From Actinomycetospora chiangmaiensis DSM 45062 (GTDB lineage: Bacteria > Actinomycetota > Actinomycetes > Mycobacteriales > Pseudonocardiaceae), in contig NZ_KB903240.1 of assembly GCF_000379625.1 (NCBI RefSeq), positions 186,195-250,194 on the forward strand: 64,000 nucleotides of DNA, written 5' to 3'. The position numbers and the translations under genes were made by a program. Positions 11,035 to 16,124 of the stretch are shown here, piece after piece (position 1 is the first letter of the stretch; each line of letters opens with the position of its first letter). The notes under the pieces were generated by a model, which saw only the letters and a program-made list of their open reading frames with translations, had not been told where the DNA came from and did no database searches.

Positions 11035-13085
11035 GACGCCTCCCCCTTGTCGATGGTCGAGCTCGGCTGCGCTGCGTCGCCGGCGTTCAGTGCGTCGAGC
11101 ACCGCCTCTGCGGTGCGCTTCCCGACGCCGGGCACCTCGGTGATCTCCTCGACGGTCGCCGCCCGCAGCTTCTTCACCGACCCGAAGTGCTTGATGAGCG
11201 CGGTCTTGCGCGTCGCGCCGAGCCCGGGCACGCCGTCGAGCTCCGAGGTCGTCATGCGCGCCGAGCGCTTCTGCCGGTGGTAGGTGATGGCGAAGCGGTG
11301 CGCCTCGTCTCGCACGCGCTGGAGCAGGTAGAGCGCCTCGGAGGTGCGCGGCAGGATCGCCGGCATCTCGTCGCCAGGCAGCCAGACCTCCTCGAGGCGC
11401 TTCGCGAGCCCGCACACCGCGACGTCGGTGATGCCGAGCTCCGAGAGCACCTCCTGCGCGGCCGCGACCTGCGGGGCGCCACCGTCGACGACGAGCAGGT
11501 TCGGCGCGTAGGCGAACTTGCGCGGGCGTCCCGTCGTCGGATCGATTCCGGGCAGCGGGCCGTCGATCGCGGCCGGGTCGATCTCGCCCGAGGCGGGCGA
11601 GCCGTCGTCGGTCTCGCCGGAGCACGACGTCGTCGTCGGGTCGTGCTCGGCGTCGGCCGCGGTCTCGCGCAGGTAGCGCTGGAAGCGACGGCGCACCACC
11701 TCGGCGATCGCCGCGACGTCGCCGCCCTCCGCGCCGCCGCGGATCGCGAACCGGCGGTAGTCCGACTTCTTCGGCAGGCCGTCCTCGAACACCACGAGGC
11801 TCGCGACGACGTCGGAGCCCTGCACGTGGCTGACGTCCGTGCACTCGATGCGCAGCGGCGCGGAGTCGAGCTCCAGGTACTCCTGGATCTCCTCCAGGGC
11901 CGCGCTGCGCGCCGTGAGGTCGCCCGCCCGCTTGAGCTTGTGCTGGGTGAGCGCTTCCTTCGCGTTGCGTTCGACGGTCTCGGCGAGGGTGCGCTTGTCG
12001 CCACGCTGCGCCACCCGGAGGCTCACCCGGCTCCCGCGCAGCTCGGTCAGCCACTGCGCCAGGGCCACGTGGTCCTCGGGCAGGGCCGGCACGAGGACCT
12101 CGCGCGGGACCGGCTGCACCGCGTCGTCGGCCGAGCCCGCGAGGGCCGCCTGCTCGCCGTAGAACTGCGAGAGGAACTGGCCGGTGAGGACCTCGAGCGT
12201 GTCCTCCTCGCCGCGTTCCACCACCCAGCCCCGCTGCCCGCGCACCCGGCCGCCGCGGACGTGGAAGATCTGGACCGCCGCCTCCAGCGGATCGAGCGCG
12301 AACGCGACGACGTCGGCGTCGGTCCCGTCGCCGAGCACCACGGCCTGCTTCTCGACGACCCGCTTGAGCGCCCCCGCGTCGTCGCGCAGCCGTGCGGCGC
12401 GCTCGAAGTCCATCTCGGCCGACGCGACCTGCATCTCCTTCTCGATGCGGGTGATCAGCTGGTCGGTGTGGCCGGCGAGGAAGTCGCAGAAGTCCAGCAC
12501 GATCTGCCGGTGCTCCTCGGCGGAGACCCGCCCCACGCACGGCGCGGCGCACTTGCCGATGTAGCCGAACATGCACGGCCGGCCGATCTGGCCGTGGCGC
12601 TTGAAGACCCCGGGCGAGCACACCCGGGCCGGGAACACGCGGGTCAGCAGCTTCAGCGTTTCGCGGATCGCCCACGCGTGGGCGTACGGCCCGAAGTAGC
12701 GCACACCCTTGCGACGGGGCCCGCGGTACACCTTGAGCTGCGGGTACTCCTCGTTCAGCGTCACTGCGAGGACCGGGTAGGTCTTGTCGTCGCGGTACCG
12801 GACGTTGAACTGCGGGTCGTACTCCTTGATCCAGTTGTACTCGAGCTGGAGGGCCTCGACCTCGGTGCCCACCACGGTCCACTGCACCGCCGCCGCGGTG
12901 GTGACCATCCGGCGGGTGCGGGGGTGCAGCCCCGACAGGTCGGCGAAGTAGGAGTTGAGGCGGCTGCGCAGGCTCTTGGCCTTGCCGACGTAGATGACGC
13001 GACCGCTCGCGTCGGAGAACCGGTAGACGCCAGGAGCCTCCGGGATGGTTCCCGGGGCGGGGCGGTAGGTGCTCGGATCGGCCAT
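11031..13085 (-). CDS. uvrC: Excinuclease ABC subunit C
   Basis: This 684-residue UvrC makes both incisions during nucleotide excision repair with UvrA and UvrB. The domain order is complete. An N-terminal GIY-YIG nuclease comes first (GVYRFSD ... [14 protein letters not shown], residues about 19-45). Next come a Cys-rich segment (CSPGVF ... [13 protein letters not shown]) and a UVR domain ([14 protein letters not shown]). An RNase H-like nuclease domain has [13 protein letters not shown] and LLVVDGG. Tandem helix-hairpin-helix motifs end the protein ([31 protein letters not shown]). An acidic insertion of about 45 residues precedes the LLVVDGG block. The last residues ([12 protein letters not shown]) are encoded by a copy of the dispersed 27-bp element. 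It is the first gene of the operon. Confidence 0.97.
11055..11081. repeat. Dispersed 27-bp junction element, copy 3 (25/27)
   Basis: GGTCGAGCTCGGCTGCGCTG followed by CGTCGCC differs from the identical pair at 5598 and 61866 at two positions. It lies in the 3' end of uvrC, in a different reading frame relative to the gene than in pgk, just before the rapZ junction. Confidence 0.65.
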
Positions 13086-13219
13086 GGCGAGTACCAGCGT
13101 AGGCGTGTCTCCTCAGCGTGTCGGCGTGCACCCAAGCGGGTGGAGTCGGCGTGTCGTTCGGCGTGTCCCGGCCCGAGACACTTGCGCTCCGGTGTGTCGG
13201 CTCGTGCCGGCCGAGGCCG

Positions 13220-13780
13220 TCAGCGTTCAGCGTGGGGCGTGCGCTGACGCTCCTGCCACCGGCGGTACCGGTTCTCCTGCCACCGCTGCTCGGCCTGGTC
13301 CCGCGCCGAGCGCATCACGCGGTCGGTGACCTGGACCAGGGCCCGCAGCATGGCGACCCGACGCTCCGGGGCCATGTCCCCGGCCACCACGGCGAGGTCG
13401 TGCCGGACGCGTGCCCGGGCGTTCTGCAGCAGGGCCCGGGTGTCCGGGGACAGGAAGACGAGCCACCCCCGGCCGTCGTGGGGGTCGTGGTTCCGGGCGA
13501 CGTGGTCCCGGTCCTCCAGCCGTCCGACCGCCCGCGCGGTCGCGGCGTGGCTGAGCGAGACCCGTCCCGCGAGCGCGGAGATCGACAACGGGTCGACGGC
13601 CCGCAGGACCTCCAGGATGGCGAGCTCCGTCGGATCGAGCCCGAGCCGGGCGGCGTCGGCGCGGAACATCTGCACGACCGCCGGCACGAGCCGGTCGAGC
13701 ACCGACGACGCGAACTCGGCGTTCTCCGCCACGAGCTCGGCACCCCAGGGCGGCATCCTCGGCGGGAGTTCGTCGGCCAC
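13220..13780 (-). CDS. MarR-family transcriptional regulator
   Basis: This winged-helix protein of about 186 residues has the MarR layout. Helices around LDRLVPAVVQMFRADAARLG lead into the HTH (PTELAILEVLRA ... ISALAGRVSLSHAATARAVG). The wing follows (LEDRDHVARNHDPHDGRG, the DxRG-type tip), and a long C-terminal dimerisation helix ends in basic residues. GTG 13780 was chosen. ATG 13756 (MPPWGAEL) is an equally possible start, and neither has a convincing ribosome binding site. The frame stays open upstream to 14089, but that stretch is tandem repeat rather than coding. The ligand and targets are unknown; the neighbours do not suggest a substrate. Confidence 0.82.
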   Translation of the reverse strand: MADELPPRMPPWGAELVAENAEFASSVLDRLVPAVVQMFRADAARLGLDPTELAILEVLRAVDPLSISALAGRVSLSHAATARAVGRLEDRDHVARNHDPHDGRGWLVFLSPDTRALLQNARARVRHDLAVVAGDMAPERRVAMLRALVQVTDRVMRSARDQAEQRWQENRYRRWQERQRTPHAER

Positions 13781-13895
13781 GGGACGAACGATAGGTGGAG
13801 CGCCGACGCGCCAGGGGCGGTTCGGGGACATTGCCGCCGCCGCGGTCCCTGACGCAGGACTCGGGACGCGCACGGGCAGTGGCCGCGTCCGGCCG

Positions 13896-14083
13896 CACCA
13901 CCTCGGGGCGAGGCGACTCCTGCGCGGGGCGCACACACTCCGGGGTGCGGGACGAGAAGGTCCGCCGACCCCTACGCGCGACGCACACACTCCGAGGCGC
14001 GAGAGGAGAAGGTCCACCAACCCCAGCGCGCGACACACACTCCGAGGCGCGAGATCAGACAGTCCCACCGACTCCCGCGCGAG
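13896..14083. repeat. Left arm of the inverted repeat array, about 52-bp period
   Basis: Units begin with GCACACACTC-like cores at 13931, 13983 and 14033 (a fourth core at 14086 lies in the central stem). The spacings are 52, 50 and 53 bases. A degenerate partial unit precedes them from about 13896. The approximate consensus continues CGAGGCGCGAGAGGAGAAG, then GTCCACCGACCCC, then CGCGCGA. No gene is recognised here. Frames read across it are not credible because the period is not a multiple of three. Together with the centre and right arm it fills the 751-bp gap between the MarR gene and the PIG-L gene. Confidence 0.85.
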
Positions 14084-14121
14084 ACGCACACATGCGATCG
14101 GGTGGTCGCGCGTGTATGCGT
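14084..14121. repeat. Central stem-loop joining the two repeat arms
   Basis: ACGCACACATGCG (14084-14096) faces CGCGTGTATGCGT (14109-14121). Eleven of 13 positions form Watson-Crick pairs, one is a G-T wobble and one a mismatch, around a 12-base loop. It is the point where the ACGCACAC core switches strand orientation. Confidence 0.6.
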
Positions 14122-14122
14122 G

Positions 14123-14484
14123 GCGCGTCGAGGTCCCGCGGGTTTCCCGCCGGGTCGGCGAGTGTGTGCGTAGCGCGTCGAGGTCCCGCGGGTTTCCCGC
14201 CGAGCCGGCCAGAGTGTGTGCGGGTCACGTCGAAGTCCCGCGGGTTTCCCACCGAGCCGGCCAGGGTGTGTGTGCGTAGCGCGTCGAGGTCTCGCGGGTT
14301 TCCCGCCGGGTCGGCCAGAGTGTGTGCGGGACGCGTCGGGGTTCCGCGAGTTTCTTGCCGGGCCAGCCAGAGTGTGTGCGAGACGCGCTGAAGTCCCGCG
14401 AATTTCCCGCCCGGCCGGAGGAAGTGGGTGTGGGACGCGTCGGGTCCCAGGGGTTCCCTGGCTGAGCCGACGACCGTGCGCGGG
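14123..14484. repeat. Right arm of the inverted repeat array, seven units of about 52 bp, each with a hairpin
   Basis: Units start at 14123, 14173, 14225, 14279, 14331, 14383 and 14435. The best units read GCGCGTCGAGGTCCCGCGGG, then TTTCCCGCCGGGTCGGCCAG, then AGTGTGTGCGGG. Each contains a hairpin with the stem GCGGG/CCCGC and a TTT loop, extended by a CCC/GGG stem across a bulged C. The GAGTGTGTGCG core is the reverse complement of the left-arm core. Later units diverge but largely keep the stem, as described in the findings. No protein-coding potential is seen. Confidence 0.85.
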
Positions 14485-14531
14485 ACGCGCGGGACGCAGC
14501 GCGCCCGCGCCGACCCGTCGTCGGGAACCCG

Positions 14532-15263
14532 CTACTTGGTGTCGAGGACGAGGAAACCCTCGGCGTAGCGGCGCTCGTCGGCGGGGGTGCCGTCGGTGCA
14601 CCAGCCGGCGGCCTTGGCCTGGGCGTAGCCCCACATCTGCATGCGCTCGGCGAGGTCGGTCATGTGGGCGGTCTGCGACTCGTGGGCGCGCAGGGCCTCG
14701 ATCTTGCGGTCGAGGGTGTCGGTGATGTCGACGTAGAGGTCGGCGCCCTCGCCGGGGTTGGCGATCCAGGTCTCGGCCACGGTCCAGGCCTCGAGACCCT
14801 CGTCGGCGAGGAGCTCGGGGTGGGCGAATGGATTGCGGGCGTCGGGGTAGATGGCGCACATCGAGGCCTCGCCGGCGGCGATGTGGTCGGGGTGGCTGCC
14901 GTAGGTGCTGCGCAGGTTGCGGGTGGGCGAGGGGACGACGCAGCGGTCGGGGCGGCGCTGCCGGATGACGCGCGAGAGGTCGCGGCGGAGCTCGTGGGTG
15001 ACGTAGAGCCGACCGTCGGGGTAGCCGAGCCAGTCGATCTCGTTCACGCCGTACACGTCGGCGGCGGCGCGCTGCTCCTTGCGGCGCAGCTCGGCCATCT
15101 CCACGCGACCCACGGCCTCGTCGAACCCGCCCGCGTCGCCGTCGGTGACGATGCAGTAGTCGACGGTGTCGCCCTCGGCCACCCACCGGGCCACCGAGCC
15201 GCCGCTGCCGAAGTCGATGTCGTCGGGGTGCGCGACGATCATGAGGATGCGAGCCACGCGCAC
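14532..15263 (-). CDS. PIG-L family deacetylase
   Basis: This 243-residue zinc-dependent N-acetyl-hydrolase belongs to the LmbE/PIG-L family. The metal-binding motif AHPDD is at residues 11-15 and the second motif, HPDH, at 124-127. Family members deacetylate GlcNAc-containing small molecules. They include MshB and Mca of mycothiol metabolism, but the sequence around AHPDDIDFGSGG is that of the general PIG-L group rather than MshB. Start is ATG or GTG at 15263. A repeat array lies immediately downstream. It is separated from the SWIM gene by 12 bases and may be the last gene of that minus-strand group. Confidence 0.88.
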   Translation of the reverse strand: MRVARILMIVAHPDDIDFGSGGSVARWVAEGDTVDYCIVTDGDAGGFDEAVGRVEMAELRRKEQRAAADVYGVNEIDWLGYPDGRLYVTHELRRDLSRVIRQRRPDRCVVPSPTRNLRSTYGSHPDHIAAGEASMCAIYPDARNPFAHPELLADEGLEAWTVAETWIANPGEGADLYVDITDTLDRKIEALRAHESQTAHMTDLAERMQMWGYAQAKAAGWCTDGTPADERRYAEGFLVLDTK

Positions 15264-15275
15264 CGTTCTACCGGC

Positions 15276-16124
15276 TCACGCCCCGAAACGCCGGTACAGG
15301 GGCCGGAGGGCCTCGCGGGCGTCGACGCCGTCGACGGTCACCCCGAGCGGCGGCATCTGGTCGAGCAGCTCCTCGGAGTTGCCCGTCACCGGCCGCCCGA
15401 CCTCCGGGAGCGGGCCGCCCGCGGCCCAGAAGCGGTCGACCACCCGGGCGAGCGGGGTGACGGCGGGGCCGTCGTCGTCGCGCCGGTCGCGGATGCCCGC
15501 CAGCAGGGTGGCCCGGTCCCGGCCGCGCCAGCGCAGGATGAGGAAGGGGTCGTCGTCGAACCGCTCCGCCACGAGGTACGCCACGGCCGCCAGGTGCTTG
15601 CAGGGCACGGACCAGTCGGGGCAGGAGCAGTCCATGGGCATCTCGCGGGCCCCCGTCGGGAAGAGCGAGAGACCGACGCGGCCGAAGACGTCCTCGAGGT
15701 CGTCGGGCACGGTCCCGCCGAGCAGCGAGGCGGCGTACCAGGAGTCGGCCGCGAAGGCGTCCTCGACGGCCTCCCAGGCCTCGTCGGCGAACGTCGTGAT
15801 GCCGATCCGCGCGCGGTAGGGCTCCGCTCGGGAGCCCTGCACCGTGGCGACGATCTCGCCCGGCTCGATCGCGAGGTCGATCACCTGGCCGGCGCGGGCG
15901 TAGGTCTTCCCCCGGTCGAGCCGCCCGCCGACCCCGAGCTTCTGCAGCACGGCGAGGAACCGGCCCGACCACCACGACTCCCCGATCGCCCCGCGCCGGC
16001 TTCTCGCGGCGATCCCGTCCTCGACGGCGATGCGGCGGCCGTACTCGGGGCGGCCGCCGGCGCGCCCGGGCTCGTCGAACTTCTCGTGGAACGGCTCCGT
16101 CGGGCGGCGACGTCTAGGCGGCAT
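15276..16124 (-). CDS. SWIM zinc-finger protein partnered with the SNF2 helicase
   Basis: This 282-residue protein carries a SWIM finger with the C-x-C...C-x-H pattern at C166, C168, C175 and H177 (segment MDCSCPDWSVPCKHLAAV). SWIM domains bind nucleic acid or protein and often accompany SWI2/SNF2 ATPases. The N-terminus is basic. Its start (ATG 16124) overlaps the end of the SNF2 helicase gene by 11 bases, so the two products are probably made together and may act as one complex. The cellular function is not established. Confidence 0.88.
   Translation of the reverse strand: MPPRRRRPTEPFHEKFDEPGRAGGRPEYGRRIAVEDGIAARSRRGAIGESWWSGRFLAVLQKLGVGGRLDRGKTYARAGQVIDLAIEPGEIVATVQGSRAEPYRARIGITTFADEAWEAVEDAFAADSWYAASLLGGTVPDDLEDVFGRVGLSLFPTGAREMPMDCSCPDWSVPCKHLAAVAYLVAERFDDDPFLILRWRGRDRATLLAGIRDRRDDDGPAVTPLARVVDRFWAAGGPLPEVGRPVTGNSEELLDQMPPLGVTVDGVDAREALRPLYRRFGA

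Follow-up and report, generated by a model that had tools for sequence, protein, structure and literature searches.

Facing tandem repeats in intergenic gaps of an Actinomycetospora clade: putative binding-site arrays with two core types

What is a block of facing tandem repeats doing between a MarR-family regulator gene and a PIG-L deacetylase gene in Actinomycetospora chiangmaiensis? The block lies in a stretch of 64,000 nucleotides, analysed as a whole and termed the window, which belongs to a genome of 5.86 Mb in 31 contigs. A first-pass annotation of the window had described a two-armed inverted array with a period of about 52 bp, and had offered a structural RNA, a nucleoid or recombination site and a family-specific intergenic repeat as readings. 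Here, we compare the block with related loci in the same genome, in the genus and beyond, and weigh an array of protein-binding sites against a mobile element, a device acting on RNA and a neutral satellite.

The window element and its family

The two-armed array in a non-coding gap is confirmed by TRF, by a core scan and by ORF calling. The gap runs for 775 bp from the start of the MarR gene (13756) to the stop of the PIG-L gene (14532), and in it the gene caller finds no coding ORF of at least 150 bases. Four plus-strand and eight minus-strand cores, 50–54 bp apart, meet head-on between the two genes across a centre of 20 bp (table 1). TRF reports 3.5 copies of period 52 on the left (score 209) and 6.6 copies of period 52 on the right (score 376, with longer periods of up to 436 on the same array), while the next-best tandem array of the 64-kb window scores 72. 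The core scan, which allowed up to two mismatches to CGCGnnnCGCACACA, gives 14 matches in the block, a count that includes two shifted copies of the same core, and 9 elsewhere in the window; the last two right-arm cores carry two mismatches each. All left-arm cores listed by the first-pass annotation are present, the third as ACACACACTC and the central one as GCACACATGC, both slightly off consensus. The right arm, where it had counted seven units, is indeed an array, and is revised to eight cores because the scan places eight on the minus strand.

Table 1. Features of the window element, in window positions, and of Nitrospirae elements with a similar core.
Feature	Position	Strand	Evidence or remark
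MarR-family regulator gene, left flank	13220..13756	-	Pfam MarR_2, E 8.4e-11; coding score
Left arm, tandem array, period 52, cores CGCGnnnCGCACACA at 13923, 13975, 14027, 14078	13914..14092	+	TRF, core scan
Centre, meeting place of both arms	14093..14112	.	sequence, core scan
Right arm, tandem array, spacing 50-54, minus-strand cores	14113..14489	-	TRF 14112-14455, core scan
Right-arm cores	14113, 14163, 14215, 14269, 14321, 14373, 14425, 14475	-	
Short motif ACCCGTCGTCGGGAA past PIG-L stop	14513..14527	.	not array-specific; similar stretches across many genomes of the genus
PIG-L deacetylase gene, right flank, 3' end toward array	14532..15263	-	Pfam PIG-L, E 1.9e-28
Nitrospirae elements	L135:869-940, L142:201-270, L154:7517-7645		

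Other repeats lie close by. Matches to window positions 14501–14527 and their neighbours are short and come from many genomes, and the ACCCGTCGTCGGGAA motif recurs at the gap between proB and proA. Upstream of uvrC, window positions 13100–13210 hold repeated GGCGTGTC motifs, as judged by eye; CGGCGTGTCG-like repeats were reported by TRF in the related loci L089 and L090, and a 158-bp unit is present four times in G010 (L088:2583-3214) near the array orthologous to that of the window.

Copies elsewhere in the genome, for which the first-pass annotation had proposed a search, are readily found. With TGCGCGNNNCGCACACA at no more than one mismatch, the source genome (G000, window included) gives 59 matches, most of them in clusters at about 12 loci, whereas the reversed pattern gives 4. 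At these loci plus units precede minus units, with weak extra matches on the other strand.

Such arrays occur in 7 of 18 Actinomycetospora genomes, all within one clade, and come with either of two cores. Type A (CGCACACA) is dominant in four genomes and type B (CGCACACGG) in three; the commonest spacing is 52 bp in the type A genomes (G000, G001, G010 and G016), and 48, 49 and 50 bp in the type B genomes G007, G003 and G015, respectively. Counted at up to one mismatch, type A matches number 59 in G000, 67 in G001, 75 in G010 and 58 in G016, and 4–13 in the other 14 genomes; exact matches to the type B pattern TGCGNNNCGCACACGG number 213 in G007, 21 in G015 and 17 in G003, and 0–3 in the other 15. 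Thus, one core type dominates per genome and the two exclude each other across the 18 genomes. Both are near background in 11 of the 18, including G014 (59% complete), and any function of the arrays is therefore not essential to the genus.

Beyond the genus, a two-unit type A pattern matched 36 stretches among 84,980 species genomes (the source genome's own record was possibly left out): 31 in Actinomycetospora (NBRC 106378, TBRC 11914 and A. soli SF1), three in Nitrospirae MAGs and two others. A looser pattern, two CGCACAC words 36–64 bp apart, was run with controls on 299 genomes and gave 26–132 matches in six of the seven array genomes and 10 in G003, against 0–4 for the controls. It also exceeded its control in the family (G221, 22 versus 4; G044, 20 versus 6; G130, 16 versus 2; G133, 13 versus 0) and in the order (G089, 29 versus 1; G242, 15 versus 3), and comparable arrays may be present in these genomes outside the genus. 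In other families of the order, CGCACAC words form tandem repeats of 63 and 54 bp (G231:C12:556901-557096 and G116:C1:735016-735130). The Nitrospirae MAGs contain interspersed elements whose core (GCGCRTCGCGCACACA) is very similar, with a distance of 54–55 bp between two cores; the likeness is perhaps convergence. A phage origin was rejected, given no similar sequence among phage records and no hit of the two-unit type A pattern in viral_contigs, and a plasmid search matched the PIG-L side and nothing of the array. Among the first-pass readings it is thus the family-specific intergenic repeat that has been borne out, in the form of interspersed repeats belonging to one clade of Actinomycetospora.

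Unit anatomy, shared loci and possible mobility

To 91 fetched stretches the window locus was added, giving 92 loci, of which 91 have a usable cluster; those of G007 and G001 are samples of the arrays in these genomes, and core matches standing alone in G000, G010 and G016 were left out. At the fetched loci the core is GCG-NNN-CGC-ACAC with a free triplet, its consensus being CGCGnnnCGCACACA or TTGCGnnnCGCACACGG, and the tail is ACACACTC in type A and ACACGG in type B. Uniformity of the core is favoured by the use of each genome's own pattern to find its loci; the letter just past the search pattern, which the pattern does not fix, is identical between loci at 90% in G000, G007 and G016, 91% in G001, 100% in G003 and G015, and 44% in G010. 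Identity at NNN is 22–53% per position between loci (seven genomes), and between adjacent units the triplet turns over like the spacer (0.753 in 297 pairs; 0.766 in 130 pairs). The difference in spacing between 48 and 52 bp looks in part like a type A core about 4 nt longer, as the consensus reads. Core matches with neither tail number 23/114 in G000, 26/152 in G007, 9/34 in G003, 24/56 in G015, 17/95 in G016, 47/145 in G010 and 16/83 in G001, and tails of the opposite type number 3–6 in each of the seven genomes.

Spacers are alike within an arm and little beyond it. Within-arm identity is 0.51–0.70 in the six genomes where it could be measured, and identity between loci is 0.34–0.43 in register versus 0.31–0.34 when shifted, an excess of only 0.03–0.10 in which a weak in-register signal remains. 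Opposite arms of one locus share 0.27–0.48 of their spacer positions, which is not above the between-locus value in six of seven genomes; the exception is G003, with 0.48 versus 0.37 (five arms). Both arms are present at 77 of the 91 loci, and of the 600 core matches there a plus-left/minus-right orientation accounts for 548, the split having been chosen for best fit and the near-palindromic cores matching the other strand too; by the same criterion the remaining 14 loci have one orientation only. The centres hold no shared motif, the commonest 8-mer being present in 13 loci where shuffles reach 10–16. Helical phasing over five turns was set aside, since sister species have spacings of 48, 49 and 50 bp, and Z-DNA from alternating CG/CA was considered only, the free NNN breaking the alternation.

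Comparison of both flanks places 49 of the 91 loci in 18 groups of orthologous loci, and 8 of the 18 hold both core types. The window locus is among these mixed groups, with type A in G000, G001, G010 and G016, type B in G015 and a 48-bp array in G007; five species besides the source thus have an array at the same place, the absence of which from sister strains the first-pass annotation had named as evidence against a functional reading. In G003, where the MarR gene is missing, the locus has a single unit. The group of L118 occupies a gap common to six species, in which the first core match lies 11 bp past the stop of the left gene in G000 and G001 (type A) and also in G003 (type B). Between L118 (A) and L182 (B), the centres share a 55-bp alignment scoring 60, where the best of seven non-orthologous loci scores 45 and shuffles 21, and those of L182 (B) and L194 (A) score 67 versus 31 for 14 others.

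Convincing homology of centres across core types is confined to these two pairs of the L118 group, and elsewhere an independent insertion at the same gap may therefore account for the shared position. Across the orthologous pairs, the interior matches better than that of any other partner locus in 11 of 25 A–A, 6 of 22 A–B and 1 of 6 B–B pairs, and at least two of the six A–B cases are matches of coding flank: the L176–L204 pair is coding flank, the intervals of L237–L191 reach into genes, L118–L191 is doubtful as its intervals do the same, and L237–L174 is marginal (55 versus 53 for a non-orthologous locus).

A tree was built from eight segments at three genomic places in 12 genomes. The clade resolves as ((((G000,(G001,G003)),G016),G007),((G010,G014),G015)), with support of 83 for G001 with G003, of 94 where G000 joins them and of 100 at the other nodes of the clade. 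The type B genome G003 thus sits inside the type A genomes G000, G001 and G016, and G010 (A) sits beside G015 (B). Core type does not follow the tree, and by our count at least three switches between A and B are therefore implied.

These loci bear on a strong rival to binding-site arrays, namely that the elements are non-autonomous, foldback-like miniature transposons, their arms made of tandem transposase or recombinase sites and mobilised by a trans-acting enzyme that varies from one species to the next; the shared loci would be old insertions or hot spots. A pair of facing tandem-repeat arms enclosing a variable centre would suit such an element, as would match numbers that vary between species and array-free sites. 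G010 and G014 have no array in the L118 gap, where 43 bp and 3 bp, respectively, separate their called genes. Between proB and proA, an array is present in G000 and G001 only; there is no core match in G003, G016, G007, G010 or G015, and outside the clade, where 8 of 10 genomes were tried and 7 were readable, none has cores. As the site is empty in five members of the clade, a history with one or more gains within it is the simpler, which counts for mobility; gain at new sites is implied, as would also be expected of a mobile element. In G000 and G001 the array is flanked on both sides by a motif of about 18 bp (CCCACCCGCCGTCGGGAA; one G000 copy has two mismatches) that is present once in G003 and G016. 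Such a pattern results either from an insertion that duplicated its target or from deletion between the direct repeats, the latter fitting equally because motifs of this 18-bp type are common across the genus.

Against mobility stand the L118 group, which keeps its flanks and centre while the core type differs, and the searches for an enzyme. The genome-wide search covered the Y1_Tnp family (PF01797, the RAYT domain) and found it in none of the 18 genomes at E≤0.001, a positive control having been found in 5 of 14 named genomes. Among 32 flanking proteins (2 of the window, 20 of 22 from the other G000 loci and 10 of G007) there is no transposase match: 5 are without a Pfam match and the rest belong to commonplace families of metabolism, transport and regulation, and to one DUF. 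On balance we consider mobile elements possible, while leaning away from them. The two readings could be compatible in part, if the protein reading the arrays were itself a transposase or recombinase.

The proB/proA gap is repeat-rich in other ways. In G000 it holds further repeats that G003 is without, and L119 and its orthologues in G003, G016, G010 and G015 contain different hairpin or tandem repeats, for example GTCAGCGGTGGCCCACGGCTGAC. Hairpin-like repeats were also seen by eye in array-free gaps of G010 (L262) and G014 (L086). The intergenic DNA of the clade seems to hold several repeat families.

Gene setting and RNA folding

At the 82 of 91 loci whose two flanking genes lie within 400 bp, the arrays lie in 32 convergent, 42 co-directional and 8 divergent gaps, compared with 58, 272 and 85, respectively, among the 415 other adjacent gene pairs of the same stretches. 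Fisher tests give p = 9e-7 for the convergent excess and 0.02 for the divergent deficit, values that are too small because orthologous loci were counted separately. Array ends lie a median of 42 bp from gene 3' ends (n = 111) versus 107 bp from 5' starts (n = 61). Such a position can mean promoter avoidance or a boundary role.

A gene for a GntR/FCD regulator (L113:2187-2879) adjoins an array common to G000 and G001, and binding sites of GntR/FadR proteins have a 3-nt centre; this regulator is only a lead as a candidate binding factor. The local MarR was rejected in that role, G003 having no MarR called at the window locus and yet type B arrays elsewhere.

Proximity to 3' ends also suits a device acting on RNA, in which hairpin units would terminate transcription or protect mRNA ends from either side, in the manner of a bidirectional terminator. 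The bias to 3' ends and convergent pairs is what this account would predict, and the minus strand of 13896–14500, folded as RNA, is better than all of 20 shuffles (z -6.1; 0/20 as good). Central stems lend some weight too: a score of at least 12 is reached in 7 of 44 centres of 60–330 nt versus 0 of 220 shuffles, so that a stem-loop is present in some elements and is not required. The plus strand, however, folds in an ordinary way (z -0.6; 4/20 shuffles as good), and core hairpins differ from shuffles by a mean of +0.3 to -2.6 kcal/mol according to genome and strand (G015 is strongest), that is, they are on average at most 2.6 kcal/mol better. A Rho-type signal was rejected, oriented spacers having a GC skew of -0.07 to +0.10 in place of a C-rich, G-poor one; a single terminator-like site was found in 13000–15500 versus 0.3 in shuffles; and the arms face each other at divergent and co-directional sites as well. 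An RNA-level device is hence improbable. The structural RNA of the first-pass annotation likewise finds poor support, with no Rfam match at the gathering score in the window, weak core hairpins and opposite-arm spacers that, in six of seven genomes, resemble each other no more than those of different loci do.

Long stems were seen in the centres of L112, L164, L169, L192, L199, L210, L212 and L228. Many centre stems have GATC near their ends, and that of L112 is 36 bp.

Putative binding-site arrays and known repeat systems

The explanation that we prefer, with confidence somewhat short of even, is that the block is one locus of dispersed binding-site arrays for a putative clade-specific DNA-binding factor. 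Each unit would be one directional site, consisting of an imperfect dyad (GCG-NNN-CGC), suggestive of dimeric binding, and a one-sided tail. Local tandem duplication would multiply the units and thereby homogenise spacers within an arm only; the putative factor would recognise its own core only, so that within a genome the cores would stay alike from locus to locus and the spacers would drift. After a change in the factor, the arrays would come to carry the new core. A shared trans-acting reader is suggested because the core is constant across loci, spacers randomise and the core differs in step between species, and gene conversion between loci is disfavoured because spacers should then travel along, which is not seen. 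With two arms facing each other beside gene 3' ends, the likeliest role would be that of a symmetric boundary between transcription units, acting in anchoring, termination or silencing. The nucleoid or recombination site of the first-pass annotation survives in this form: a protein-binding or nucleoid site fits best, as a putative assignment. A neutral satellite, multiplied by slippage and drifting without a trans-acting factor, would account for within-arm homogenisation, locus-specific spacers and the 11 of 18 genomes with both core types near background, but has little chance of being right, as drift would neither preserve one core at unrelated loci amid randomising spacers nor alter it in step.

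The in-step switching of the core is the surprising part of the family. A bolder form of the binding-site reading, which we hold to be unlikely, is that these are dispersed, two-armed satellites read by one fast-evolving putative protein, whose target was switched genome-wide at least three times within the clade, resident arrays being rewritten in place to the new core and spacing. If true, they would parallel, in bacteria, the co-evolution of satellites with the proteins that bind them. The architecture seen here is bipartite, many loci are common to species, and core and spacing differ in step genome-wide. These in-step differences make the idea testable, as a protein reading A versus B cores should have changed too; confirmation would give a clean bacterial case of repeat–protein coevolution, and possibly a chromosome boundary element.

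Several known systems resemble the arrays in part. CRISPR was rejected because spacers are repeated within an arm and are not unique. Eukaryotic foldback transposons have inverted arms of tandem direct repeats and a variable middle. The arrays share this plan, and differ in being bacterial and smaller, in arms that have little in common beyond the core, their spacers being too dissimilar for homology along the full length, and in that no enzyme was found by the searches described above.

REP and BIME repeats are intergenic, lie mostly in convergent or co-directional gaps near 3' ends and, in BIMEs, are regularly spaced (PMC2817692, PMC3733652). The same kinds of gap and nearness to 3' ends are favoured by the arrays here. 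Their distribution may reflect promoter avoidance (PMC3733652), and for RAYTs a coevolution of repeat and enzyme is reported (PMC2817692, PMC3733652, PMC3116915). Unlike REPs, the units here are not GTAG- or CGTC-tagged palindromes of 20–40 bp, the tags being judged from the consensus, but carry a short dyad, and unlike BIMEs each arm is a run of one orientation and does not alternate. With no Y1_Tnp in any of the 18 genomes, a REP/RAYT system was rejected; CGTC-type REPs are also described without a dedicated transposase (PMC3733652). Membership fails for REP/BIMEs and STAR elements alike.

Among the matches listed in a search of the PMC literature there was no title about such arrays in Actinomycetospora, and the STAR elements of Staphylococcus are the nearest published system found. 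They have 14-bp cores with the consensus T(G/A/T)TGTTG(G/T)GGCCC(C/A), separated by locus-specific spacers of 40–44 bp, and are reported without known function or spreading mechanism (PMC3532100). The STAR consensus is not matched by the cores described here (CGCGnnnCGCACACA or TTGCGnnnCGCACACGG); STAR elements are described as direct repeats, whereas here two facing arms surround a centre; their loci differ between species, whereas here the orthologous groups cover more than half of the loci and it is the core type that differs; and spacing here is nearly constant within a species. Core, orientation and species-specific loci thus set the two apart. What they have in common is a short GC-rich core about every 50 nt, intergenic, at many loci and in variable repeat number, with spacers that are locus-specific, near-constant in length and alike within a locus (here 0.51–0.70 versus 0.34–0.43).
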